Positions 6,040 to 63,091 of a stretch of 64,000 bases of DNA are shown in pieces. The stretch is from Xanthocytophaga agilis. GTDB lineage: Bacteria; Bacteroidota; Bacteroidia; Cytophagales; 172606-1. Every line of letters starts with the position of its first letter. The stretch's first letter is position 1. The notes beneath the pieces are model-generated. The model was not told the origin of the DNA, did not search any database, and was given only the letters and a program-made list of their open reading frames with translations. The translations under genes and the position numbers were made by a program. The DNA lies in contig NZ_JASJOU010000005.1 of the NCBI RefSeq assembly GCF_030068605.1, forward strand, positions 310,001-374,000. Reading direction: 5' to 3'.

Positions 6040-6365
6040 TTATCAGGATTCTGGTTATATCTCAAGATTATCAGAGTCCTGATACTTAAATAAAGTAATC
6101 AGATTTCTGATAGTGTGAAATTATAATCAGTAGCTTGATATTTTTCCAAAGTGACTGGAATTCCAGTCATTGGCAGAAGCGACCGAAACTCCAGTTAAAC
6201 AAACTTTTGAACTAAAGTCCAGTCATCTATGAAAGTGAACAGAGTTTAGGTCAATGAAGAAAGTGACCATTATTCGAATATTTCTTGAAAGTGATCGGTA
6301 TTCCAGTCAAACGCAAAAATGATTTGAATAATGGTCAAAAATATTTTTAATTAGAAATCCATTTG
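6040..6365. repeat. 28-bp-period array of degenerate 18-bp palindromes (copy A)
   Basis: Units of 18 bases begin exactly every 28 bases at 6040, 6068, 6096, 6124 (decayed), 6152, 6180, 6208, 6236, 6264, 6292, 6320 and 6348 (decayed). The clearest is the perfect palindrome TGACTGGAATTCCAGTCA at 6152-6169; others include TGATCGGTATTCCAGTCA (6292-6309) and TGATTTGAATAATGGTCA (6320-6337). The first three follow an ATCAG...CTGAT pattern (for example TTATCAGGATTCTGGTTA). The 10-bp spacers often end in AAAG. The array fills the gap between two convergent genes. Related arrays occur at three other sites in the window. Confidence 0.8.
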
Positions 6366-6451
6366 CTTTTGCTGACATCAAGGCCATGAACAGATTTCTG
6401 ATCATCATTTAGATTGTGCATGATTCGTTGCACACTATTATATATCTTGAG

Positions 6452-16598: not shown

Positions 16599-16907
16599 TG
16601 ACCGTTTTTAGAGAAAATTTCCAATTTGTGTATAGTTCACCGCAAACAGTTTTTTGGTAATCGCAAAGCAGTCCTATCTATCGGCTAATGAATTACGTTT
16701 TAATTACGGCAATTTTGCTTTTGACTAGAACTCCGATCATTTCCAGCGGTGCACATAACTAATTGCAGATTTCATTTTGACCGGAACTCTAGTCGTTTTT
16801 TCTCTTGCACATAATTCACAACAATTTTTATTTTGATCGGAATTCACCGCAAACAATTGCTTGTATAGAATTGTGCGCAATAAAACTTTTGATGTGAATT
16901 CCGATCA
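16599..16907. repeat. 28-bp-period palindrome array (copy B, inverted relative to C and D)
   Basis: In-phase 18-mers: TGACTAGAACTCCGATCA (16722), TGCACATAACTAATTGCA (16750), TGACCGGAACTCTAGTCG (16778), TGCACATAATTCACAACA (16806), TGATCGGAATTCACCGCA (16834), TGTATAGAATTGTGCGCA (16862), TGATGTGAATTCCGATCA (16890), each 28 bases apart. Two more in another phase: TGACCGTTTTTAGAGAAA (16599) and TGTGTATAGTTCACCGCA (16627). Read on the minus strand, the unit order from 16851 downward (chimera, Y, X, Y, X) equals copy D. It fills a gap between convergent genes. Confidence 0.8.
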
Positions 16908-33217: not shown

Positions 33218-34612
33218 TTACTCCCTTTCTCGGTAATAAACAACCTCTCCACGTCGTCCACTGCTACCATTAAAACCAGACATTCCGGGTCTTCCATTGC
33301 TGCCACTTCGGCCACTGGGCTCTCCACTACCACCCCGTCCTCCGCTACCAGCTGAACCTCCGCTACCACCCCATCCGCCAGAACCGCCAACGCTAATAGC
33401 CTTAATAACATGAAGATAGGGTTCGGCTGCTTTAGTATGATATATGTAAATGTTTCCTCCATCTCCACCATGTCCGCCGGGTGCACCATTGCCACCGTCG
33501 CCTCCATTTCCACCATGTGTTCCCGGATGCCGGATTACTTCATCAACATACGTACTGTCATTTATTTTCTTTTTCTTCGTCTCTGTTTTCCCATCAACTC
33601 CGGCACCTCCATCTCCACCATTTCCACCACTCCCGCCACGTCCGCCATCTCCTCCTCTTGCTCTAATAAACAAATTCCCTTGTTCTGCATCAATTCGGTA
33701 AAAGTTACTTCTACCTGTTTGCAAGTCTGTGACCTTAGCATCAACTAGTGTAGTTTGCAGAATATCATCAAAATAAGCATCTACCGTAACTTTTATATCA
33801 TGTCCTGGCTCTCCATTTTCACCTGGACTTCCCCATCCTCCATTCCCTCCATGACACCCGGATGAACCATTTGACCCAGAAGAGCCACTAAAGCCCATTC
33901 TACCATCACTTGATGATGTATTATAAGAATATTTGGCCTTGTAATCGAGTTTAAATGAAACGGCACCACTTTCCGGGATTATAAAGTCTTTACTATATGC
34001 ATAGACGGCTACAGTATGATTGGGAATAGCATAGGCATCTGGCCATATATATAAATGATTGCGTTTGATCTCGCCACCTTCTACTCTGTAGTTGAAATCA
34101 GCGAGTGATATCATGCCTCCTCTTTTCTGATTTACAACAGAAGTAGATCCATCACTCCATTGAAGAGCCAGTGCAAAAGGAGTATTAAATCCAGGAGCTT
34201 TTACAAAATCGTCTGGCAATTCTGGTTTAATAGCAACCGGAAAATGATAAGGAATGGGTATTTCAGAATAAAGAGTTTTTTTCTTTCGGTCATACACCCG
34301 TATGGTAAACGATTTCTGCTTTATTAAAGCCAGATCATGAGGTATATGCAAAACCCCATTTCGAATCCTTGGCTCTATAGTAGATTCAATATATAATTTG
34401 CGCCAGGGAATTTTTCCATTAAGTAGTCCTTTGGTTTGAGAGACCTTCCCTTCTTTTGATACAAAAGAGAACCCTATAGAAAGAGTATTACCAGGAAAAA
34501 CAAGTTTCTCCTTTTCAAGAGAAATCTTTACAGAATCGGAAAACTGAGCATTTGCAGGATTCGCCATGCCTACTATGCATAAGCACAACAGATGAGTAAA
34601 GATACGTTTCAT
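33218..34612 (-). CDS. Secreted collagen-like, glycine-rich protein
   Basis: 464 residues with a signal peptide (MKRIFTHLLCLCIVGMANPANAQ). The first 230 residues form a beta-rich region. Then come four glycine-rich blocks with Gly every third residue: about 237-270, 320-341, 364-386 and 409-455 (for example GGDGGRGGSGGNGGDGGAG). They alternate with short strand-like segments (NLFIRARG, NIYIYHT, HVIKAISVGG). The last residues are charged (RRGEVVYYRERE). A triple helix is unlikely without Pro; a glycine-rich adhesive or polyglycine-II bundle is possible. Two Cys (10, 12) are in the signal region. Function unknown. Confidence 0.75.
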   Translation of the reverse strand: MKRIFTHLLCLCIVGMANPANAQFSDSVKISLEKEKLVFPGNTLSIGFSFVSKEGKVSQTKGLLNGKIPWRKLYIESTIEPRIRNGVLHIPHDLALIKQKSFTIRVYDRKKKTLYSEIPIPYHFPVAIKPELPDDFVKAPGFNTPFALALQWSDGSTSVVNQKRGGMISLADFNYRVEGGEIKRNHLYIWPDAYAIPNHTVAVYAYSKDFIIPESGAVSFKLDYKAKYSYNTSSSDGRMGFSGSSGSNGSSGCHGGNGGWGSPGENGEPGHDIKVTVDAYFDDILQTTLVDAKVTDLQTGRSNFYRIDAEQGNLFIRARGGDGGRGGSGGNGGDGGAGVDGKTETKKKKINDSTYVDEVIRHPGTHGGNGGDGGNGAPGGHGGDGGNIYIYHTKAAEPYLHVIKAISVGGSGGWGGSGGSAGSGGRGGSGEPSGRSGSNGRPGMSGFNGSSGRRGEVVYYRERE

Positions 34613-34988: not shown

Positions 34989-35175
34989 CAATTAAAATTC
35001 TTGACAAAGGCATCTTCGTATTGAATGTATAACAGTATGTTTCTTGCGGTGAATTCCGATCAGATTTTGTTTTTACTGTGAATTATACGCAAACATAAAA
35101 ATGATAGGAGTTCCAGTCAAAATAAAATCTGTAGTGAGGCACGCCCAAAAGCAAAAATGCAGGGAATAATATTCA
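34989..35175. repeat. 28-bp-period palindrome array (copy C)
   Basis: Units at 34989 (CAATTAAAATTCTTGACA), 35017, 35045 (TGCGGTGAATTCCGATCA), 35074 (TACTGTGAATTATACGCA), 35102 (TGATAGGAGTTCCAGTCA), 35130 (TGTAGTGAGGCACGCCCA) and 35158 (TGCAGGGAATAATATTCA); spacing 28 or 29. Over 35045-35123 it is identical at 70 of 79 positions (counted by eye) to copy D at 62786-62864. It lies downstream of gldF. Confidence 0.8.
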
Positions 35176-35301
35176 AACTCTCTTTCAGTTTATGAAGCTG
35201 TCTTGCCATTGCTAAAAAAAGTATGCAGTGAACCATGCACAACAAAACAATCACTTTCTTTTGCTTACACTATGAAATAACTCTTGTGATAGATCTTAGG
35301 C

Positions 35302-61181: not shown

Positions 61182-62630
61182 ATGCTGAACCAACGACAAA
61201 TTATTAAAGACTTACTCCAATCTACTGCATTTGATACGGAGGTACATGTAAAAGGCTGGGTACAAACTACCCGTATGAACCCTTATATTGCTTTCATTGC
61301 TTTAAATGATGGTTCTACTATTAATCACCTGCAGATCGTTGCGGATATCTCTATTTTCGGACAAGAGTTTATTGATAAGATCAAAAATACAGGTACCTGT
61401 ATTGCTGTAACAGGTAAATTGGTAGAGTCACAAGGTGCTGGTCAGCGAGTTGAAGTACAAGCTACACAGATAGAATTATATGGAGAGTCAGATCCGGTAA
61501 GTTATAAACTTCAGGCTAAACGCCACTCAATGGAGTTTATGCGTGAGATTGCACACCTTCGCCCGAGAACCCGTACGTTTGGTGCAATATTACGGATACG
61601 CCATACATTGGCTTATGCAGTTCATAAATATTTTAACGATAATGGATTCTTCTATCTACATACCCCTATCATTACAGGGTCAGATGCAGAAGGAGCAGGA
61701 GAAATGTTTCGGGTAACAACCCTTGATCCTGTGAATCCACCACTGACTGAAGATGGACAGGTAGATTACAAACAGGATTTCTTTGGAAAACCAACGAATC
61801 TTACAGTGTCTGGCCAATTGGAAGGAGAACTAGGAGCTATGGCATTGTCCAAGATCTATACTTTTGGACCTACATTCCGAGCCGAAAACTCCAATACAAC
61901 ACGCCACCTGGCTGAGTTTTGGATGATTGAGCCAGAGGTAGCATTTAACGACCTGGAAGATAATATGAATCTGGCCGAAGATTTCGTTAAATATGTTATC
62001 GGATATGCGATGGAACATTGTGGTGATGATCTGGCCTTTCTGGAAAACCGCTTGATTGAAGAGGAAAAGAATAAAAAGCAGGAAGAACGAAGTCCTATGC
62101 CATTGTTGGAAAAACTTCGTTTTGTACTGGATAACCCGTTTGAACGATTAACCTATACAGAAGCCGTAGATATTCTGGTAAAATCCAAACCTGCTCAAAA
62201 AGGGCAGTTTAAGTATCCTGTAAGCTGGGGTATAGATCTGCAATCAGAACACGAACGCTATCTGGTTGAAAAACACTTTAAAAAGCCGGTGATTCTGACC
62301 AACTATCCAAAAGATATCAAGGCGTTTTATATGCGTCAGGATGATGATGGAAAGACGGTACGTGCAATGGATGTGTTATTCCCTGGCATTGGAGAAATCA
62401 TTGGAGGTTCTCAACGGGAAGAACGGTATGAGAAGCTTCATACCAGAATCAAGGAACTACACATTCCGGAAGAAAGTCTTTGGTGGTATCTGGAAACCCG
62501 TCAGTATGGTACAGCTCCTCATGCTGGTTTTGGTTTAGGTTTTGAACGTTTGGTGTTGTTTGTGACTGGTATGACTAACATTCGTGATGTGATTCCATTC
62601 CCAAGAACCCCACAAAATGCAGAGTTCTGA
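61182..62630 (+). CDS. asnS: Asparaginyl-tRNA synthetase
   Basis: Charges tRNA-Asn. 482 residues starting [14 protein letters not shown]. The OB-fold anticodon domain ([25 protein letters not shown]) leads into the class II core: motif 2 [29 protein letters not shown] and motif 3 [31 protein letters not shown]. The frame extends to a TTG at 61116, within a region resembling a -7 box (AATCTTTG), so the ATG at 61182 is preferred. Ended by a strong terminator. Confidence 0.96.
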
Positions 62631-62697: not shown

Positions 62698-62785
62698 CTT
62701 TATCGAGCTACCTTCTTCTTTTACAAAATACTTGATTGGGTATAATCTCTTAAAGAATAAACTGTACATAACTTTATGCAGAGTT

Positions 62786-63091
62786 TGCGGTGAATTCCGA
62801 TCAGATTTTATTTTTGCTGTGAGTTATGCGCAAACAAAAAAATAATCGGAATTCCGGTCAAAAAATAGTTTGCGATGAGTTATGTGTAAACAAAAAAATG
62901 ATTGGAACTCTGGTTAAAATAAAAAAGTGATTGGATCTATACACAATTTGTTCATGGATCGATGGACCTGCCTTACCTTCTCTAAAAATATTTTGCAAAG
63001 AATAATTAGCAAACATAAAATAATCAGAATTCGGGTCAAACTTTAAAATGATTATTATTTGAATTTTTCAAAGTGATTACTATTCTAGTTA
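62786..63091. repeat. 28-bp-period palindrome array (copy D, most complete)
   Basis: Units at 62786 (TGCGGTGAATTCCGATCA), 62815 (TGCTGTGAGTTATGCGCA), 62843 (TAATCGGAATTCCGGTCA), 62871 (TGCGATGAGTTATGTGTA), 62899 (TGATTGGAACTCTGGTTA), 62928 (TGATTGGATCTATACACA), 62994 (TGCAAAGAATAATTAGCA), 63021 (TAATCAGAATTCGGGTCA), 63049 and 63074. Spacing is 28 or 29 through the first six and less regular later. It shows the alternation of TGAnCGG...CCnGTCA and TGCn...GCA units. The head matches copies B (inverted) and C, the tail (63049-63091) matches copy A at 6264-6309. Confidence 0.82.

Follow-up and report, generated by a model that had tools for sequence, protein, structure and literature searches.

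A dispersed intergenic repeat of 18-bp units on a 28-bp pitch in two species of Xanthocytophaga

MITEs are short, non-coding, dispersed sequences that lie between genes. The BOX repeats of Streptococcus pneumoniae, in those parts of their description that were available to us, occur in excess between convergent genes, vary in module number and move slowly; they have a predicted RNA fold with conserved pairs and are not depleted between divergent genes (PMC3049150). REP/REPIN sequences, in the available part of a second source, carry a GTAG or CGTC foot next to a 20-40-bp palindrome (PMC3733652). The repeat described here was found in the window, by which we mean the whole 64-kb stretch that was analysed (bases 310001-374000 of contig C5, in a genome of 9.77 Mb and 66 contigs). 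Several dozen dispersed, non-coding copies of it, built as strings of 18-bp near-palindromes at a 28-bp spacing near gene ends, are seen in two species of one genus. A first-pass annotation of the window, made from its sequence alone, had named no family that fits, and we can name none either: Rfam returned 0 matches above the gathering score in the whole 64-kb window, and the literature available to us in part held no description of such repeats for this bacterial group.

Anatomy of the copies

The copy at 62786-63091 lies downstream of a terminator-like hairpin and of a gene ending at 62630, which we take from its sequence to be asparaginyl-tRNA synthetase, and the next ORF is on the same strand. 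We scored its 18-bp units with a matrix built from 208 units of 30 copies (consensus TG-M-N-N-N-K-A-R-Y-T-M-N-N-N-K-CA). Unit order and pitch were as first annotated, with a head followed by units at 62815, 62843, 62871 and 62899; the pitch from the head onward is 29, 28, 28 and 28, and the units at 62815-62916 form a repeat of two units with a 56-bp period and 82% identity. The parts of this copy and the other copies in the window are as follows.

62763 to 62780, plus strand: upstream unit TGTACATAACTTTATGCA, matrix score 7.8
62786 to 62803, plus strand: head unit TGCGGTGAATTCCGATCA, matrix score 22.6
62815 to 62916, plus strand: units Y, X, Y and X in that order, scores 21.0, 15.7, 10.1 and 12.8
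62928 to 62945, plus strand: degenerate last unit before the spacer, score 4.5, in a slot conserved in other copies
62946 to 62993, plus strand: conserved spacer from array to tail, from an alignment of 30 copies; a 66/67-bp jump in many of them
62994 to 63011, plus strand: degenerate tail unit, score 6.8, in a slot conserved in other copies
63021 to 63091, plus strand: post-tail units, that at 63021 clear (score 11.0), that at 63074 very weak (score 1.2)
6152 to 6404, plus strand: copy A, 5 units above threshold, spaced by 84, 56, 28 and 67
16627 to 16907, minus strand: copy B, 8 units called
35045 to 35241, plus strand: copy C, 5 units called, 88% identical over 78 bp (BLAST) to the copy at 62786-63091

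The identity of copy C agrees with an earlier count by eye of 70 of 79 shared bases, and matches to the head 18-mer, unit spacing and clusters, and gene context bear out the proposal that the four loci are one element, present in both orientations, between genes and near their 3' ends. The Y form had also been taken for a palindrome, which needs correction, since its inside is not symmetric and the symmetry is confined to the TGC...GCA ends and the centre. Units of the symmetric TGA...TCA type make up 117 of the 676 oriented units, a count that leaves out 10 of 118 copies with unclear orientation. As a separate observation, the window holds a tandem repeat at 33322-33380 with an 18-base unit present in 3.3 copies (consensus CTCCACTACCACCCCATC).

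Across copies the units keep a common order, namely (often) an upstream unit, then the head and a first linker rich in T, next Y, X, Y, X and a last unit, followed by the jump of 66/67 bp over the conserved spacer to the tail unit. The build is modular with a variable number of middle units: 3 to 11 units were called per copy, most commonly 6 or 7 (30 copies each, n = 118), and at 11 of 35 orthologous loci the length difference between the two species is 27-30 or 56 bp, which corresponds to whole units. Most copies have no coding capacity; by mechanical ORF calls, 8 of 118 overlap an ORF of at least 90 codons by more than 100 bp.

Some copies carry TTTGGGATGACTCATG about 40 bp past the last unit, and its reverse complement precedes the first unit. 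The same 16 bases bound another set of repeats, mostly 320-470 bp long and with a different interior, and we built the end-motif matrix from 19 end pairs of this separate repeat, 17 of which hold no unit and two of which hold one. The downstream motif was found in 20 of 118 copies, whereas a control position gave 2 and the wrong strand 1; the upstream motif was less clear (13 of 118 copies, compared with 5 and 2, respectively). At least one motif is present in 29 of 118 copies and both are present in 4, in inverted orientation, among them one orthologous pair; neither exceeded the threshold in 89 of 118. These motifs are probably terminal inverted repeats, most of which have decayed.

The second, MITE-like family has ends CATGAKTCATCCCRAA and a strongly folding interior. 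Its end motifs, allowing up to 2 mismatches, number 82 in this genome and 50 in the congener (5 and 4 in a backward control), and for two of its members in the congener, the corresponding place in this genome holds no counterpart. Its members include the following.

C5:431758-432114, C5:433173-433512, C5:445399-445743 and C13:149854-150219, besides other places in this genome: second MITE-like family

Number, place and history of the copies

BLAST of the 306 bases of the copy at 62786-63091 against its own genome gave 57 matching pieces, the best non-self match being 82% identical over 163 bp (E 1e-37), and the head 18-mer, when up to 2 mismatches were allowed, matched 58 times in this genome and 56 times in the congener. 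The reversed 18-mer, used as a control, matched 0 times in both and once in another genome (G004). Single unit matches at a score of 8 were in moderate excess over the 574 kb of C5 (105 compared with 65 in a first-order resampled control). The distances between them peak at 28, 56, 84 and 112 and, across the spacer, at 95, 151 and 179, and the one resampled control of C5 held no unit pair within 200 bp. When copies were called as clusters of at least three units in phase, the fetched sequence yielded 63 in this genome and 55 in the congener, compared with 0 in 1 Mb of resampled sequence; these numbers are not densities, since stretches outside C5 were picked for holding a head or a match. The 28-bp phase noted at first is thus kept across genomic copies, and their number exceeds the control.

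A head profile covering 85 positions, built from 29 copies (the thirtieth, with a shifted match, was left out), gave 117 matches in 73 places of this genome at E 0.01, of which 20 places have no called copy in the fetched sequence. Together with the 63 called copies, these bring the known copies to about 83, and more may exist because the profile misses 2 of the 12 copies on C5. The contig of the window is rich in copies, with 12 called in 574 kb compared with about 83 known in 9.77 Mb. The dispersed repeat is therefore real.

The copies are unevenly distributed relative to genes. Among 62 usable copies of this genome (1 of 63 was unusable), 37 lie in tandem, 21 in convergent and 4 in divergent gaps, compared with 153, 28 and 105 in a background of 286 copy-free gaps of 200 bp or more, delimited by mechanical ORF calls. 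The 54 usable copies of the congener (1 of 55 was unusable) fall into 26 tandem, 26 convergent and 2 divergent gaps, against a background of 111, 33 and 83 (227 gaps). Both the deficit in divergent gaps (Fisher p 6e-7 in this genome and 3e-7 in the congener) and the excess in convergent gaps (p 7e-6 and 4e-7) are seen in each genome, the two genomes not being independent. Within tandem gaps, orientation along or against the genes showed no significant preference (20 and 16 in this genome, 17 and 8 in the congener).

A search for the head in named genomes matched only Xanthocytophaga flavus YF14B1, in 7 stretches. With up to 2 mismatches, the head 18-mer had 0 matches in the other genome of the same genus (72% complete) and 1 in total among five other genomes of the family. 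A profile search of 194 genomes under stricter filters, in which a genome was scored by 23 candidates among the matches listed, left 191 without a match; the three that matched were this genome, the congener and, once, genome G046, a single match at E 5e-4 among 194 genomes that we took as chance. Weak short DNA matches in five genomes outside the genus (best E 2e-4) were likewise rejected as signs of a wider spread, as none of the seven loci inspected held an array. Plasmids and phages gave no match at E 1e-5 in a search from which near records were possibly missing.

Of the 63 copies called in this genome, 50 have a counterpart in the congener. Orthologues on both flanks were present in the fetched congener stretches for 36, and 14 more counterparts came from a flank search or one flank, one of them degenerate and three judged by one flank. 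Six copies have no counterpart, one of these loci keeping a single unit, and the remaining 7 were not assessable. Over 35 loci the flanks diverge by 5.3% (the 36th was dropped for its gappy alignment), and non-self matches longer than 60 bp within this genome are 71-93% identical. Since copies within the genome differ much more than the flanks of orthologues, the spread of the copies is older than the split of the species. Among the loci compared we found neither a target-site duplication nor a clean empty site; the six loci that lack a counterpart include a 327-bp insertion or deletion with no ends that could be recognised, and others resemble replaced intergenic DNA.

Two further observations concern this part of contig C5. 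At the place of copy C (C5:345045), the congener retains a single unit, next to other repeats of an AACCTG...CAGGTT type. A 150-kb inversion relative to the congener extends from 276 kb to 426 kb of C5 with array copies at both breakpoints; recombination between copies was considered as its cause and rejected, as both junctions lack an array in the congener.

Readings of the repeat

We favour, with a probability of about 0.6, a non-autonomous, BOX-like modular interspersed repeat that was once mobile and whose units are predicted protein-binding sites. A mobile origin is supported because unit types follow a single order in the dispersed copies, and of the three readings first offered (a mobile repeat, a protein-binding array and a row of RNA hairpins) it fits best, given this fixed order and the inverted ends on a subset of copies. 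Between a fixed head and a tail, the element has 28-bp units in variable number followed by a fixed spacer, and short terminal inverted repeats probably once bounded it. Transposition in trans would have spread it before the split of the two species, and it would have survived mainly where harm is small, downstream of genes and seldom between divergent genes; it now changes by the gain or loss of whole 28-bp units. It has the look of an old genetic hitch-hiker, by now mostly immobile. The copies, their unit order and spacing, the gene context, the age relative to the split and the gain and loss of units are shown by the data; transposition, an enzyme acting in trans and protein binding are inferred.

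Among the transposase families tried (DDE_Tnp_1, DDE_3 and Y1_Tnp), no enzyme with these ends was found. This genome gave 9 DDE_Tnp_1 matches and 1 DDE_3 match, and the ten loci had no flanking end pair; a single motif resembling an end (2 mismatches) lies near a broken DDE_Tnp_1 fragment; it was counted in two overlapping loci and had no partner within the stretch examined.

The most likely role of each 18-bp unit is that of a dyad site bound by a dimeric DNA-binding protein, either a transposase (lost or unfound) or a host protein, with predicted contacts at the TG and CA of the rim and at the A and T flanking the centre; the sites may still be read by such a protein. The protein-binding array first proposed is compatible with the mobile repeat and is favoured by position-specific constraint between orthologues. 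In 209 units aligned between the species, the outer TG/CA differ at 27 of 836 positions, compared with 166 of 2090 for the inner variable positions (p 1e-6) and 251 of 3593 for the linkers (p 2e-5), so that the rim changes about half as often as the linkers. With both ends pooled, differences amount to 2.2% at positions 1/18, 4.3% at 2/17, 6.7% at 3/16, 11.0% at 4/15, 7.9% at 5/14, 6.2% at 6/13, 7.9% at 7/12, 4.1% at 8/11 and 6.7% at 9/10, compared with 7.0% in linkers. Losses in this genome are under-counted because the units were picked from it (of the 209, 12 pass in this genome alone and 2 in the congener alone); by our estimate, adding one rim change for each of ten possibly unseen units would give about 37 of 846, which is still lower. 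G/C and A/T positions mutate at different rates, and the rim bases still fall below the same bases in linkers. This low divergence favours molecular contact at the rim, as judged from sequence comparison.

The best-surviving alternative, which we consider somewhat unlikely, is that an old mobile repeat is now functionless and the symmetry is a relic of how the unit arose. Orthologous copies drift as fast as their flanks or faster (linkers 7.0%, the mostly coding flanks 5.3%), unit number is unstable, and 6 of 56 assessable copies lack a counterpart, all of which an inert repeat would explain; it would not explain why the rim and near-centre bases change more slowly than linkers, a difference subject to bias from the choice of units in this genome. 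In the opposite direction, the mobile repeat could have become a chromosomal platform, in which, in this genus, some 80 gene-end arrays would be bound by a dedicated dimeric protein that insulates or organises transcription, above all convergent transcription, and reads discrete half-site types (TGATCGGA, TGCSGTGA and TGCGCATA) in a set order. Taken jointly, this proposal is unlikely.

The array could instead act as structured RNA, transcribed from the neighbouring gene, with a row of hairpins that stabilises, processes or ends the mRNA. Compared with 100 shuffles, the plus strand folds better than all of them (z -2.65) and the minus strand better than 97. Among 117 X units, G-U mispairs outnumber A-C mispairs by 99 to 33 and standard pairs number 275 compared with 255 +- 6 in shuffled halves; the 77 distinct X units give 63 to 25 and 167 compared with 154 +- 6, and three double compensatory differences occur at two orthologous loci. 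However, the pooled wobble excess may descend from one ancestor, and orthologue data outweigh pooled data, since the pooled copies have a common ancestor. Differences of the Watson-Crick/G-U kind between orthologous X units (11) are not clearly above those of the Watson-Crick/A-C kind (8). RNAalifold on 12 copies gave a covariation term of about zero (-0.31 and +0.4 on the two strands), with double changes at 2 of 35 and 8 of 31 pairs, and variability peaks at the fourth stem pair. The pooled data thus lean towards RNA and the orthologue data do not, so that the evidence overall is mixed and weak. The row of 7-bp hairpins first suggested is further disfavoured because only X units can form them and neither orientation relative to genes is significantly preferred, and we judge a role as RNA distinctly unlikely.

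More doubtful still is an array made by the host and never mobile, in which sites of a chromosomal protein spread by duplication and gene conversion and were selected at gene ends. Such an origin would agree with the position-specific constraint, with the failure to find a transposase or target duplication and with the 89 of 118 copies that lack end motifs. It is harder to reconcile with a fixed order of unit types and a conserved spacer at unlinked places, with end motifs common to another short repeat, and with a strong avoidance of divergent gaps like that of other parasitic repeats in the available part of their description (PMC3049150). Finally, a REP/REPIN array moved by a Y1 (RAYT) transposase shares the clustered extragenic palindromes in tandem and convergent gaps, but we rejected it as highly improbable, since PF01797 has 0 matches in this genome and matches in 5 of 14 control genomes, and since the units, whose consensus starts with TG and ends with CA, have no GTAG or CGTC foot beside the palindrome as described in the available part of PMC3733652.

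The two sister genomes share about 50 copies and show whole-unit indels and a regular array of sites, which makes them a good test case. Should a protein bind the array, it would exemplify a parasitic repeat becoming a distributed system of sites; should none bind, it would be a well-dated fossil of a copying burst.

Comparison with described systems

The repeat resembles REP, BIME and REPIN sequences, as far as the available part of their description goes, in forming clusters of extragenic palindromes in tandem and convergent gaps (PMC3733652), and differs from them in its regular 28-bp pitch and its fixed order over some 250 bp. With MITEs it shares being short, non-coding, dispersed and intergenic, and a subset of copies has 16-base inverted ends common to another short repeat; in contrast to MITEs, most copies have no recognisable ends, and no target duplication or partner transposon was found. 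We file it as a variant of MITE-like modular repeats, its membership in MITEs proper being unproven.

The likeness to BOX, on the portions of the BOX description available (PMC3049150), extends to a modular build whose middle module varies in number, to size steps of whole modules, to an excess between convergent genes, to restriction to close relatives and to slow movement. In contrast with BOX, the middle module here consists of two alternating 28-bp site units, covariation is absent in the 12 copies compared while BOX has a predicted fold with conserved pairs, and the repeat is depleted between divergent genes where BOX is not (PMC3049150). We liken the architecture alone, not the boxA-boxB-boxC sequences, and a relation in sequence is neither seen nor expected. 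The repeat is not claimed as a member of the BOX family; by build, number, place and behaviour, BOX is nevertheless the nearest known system.
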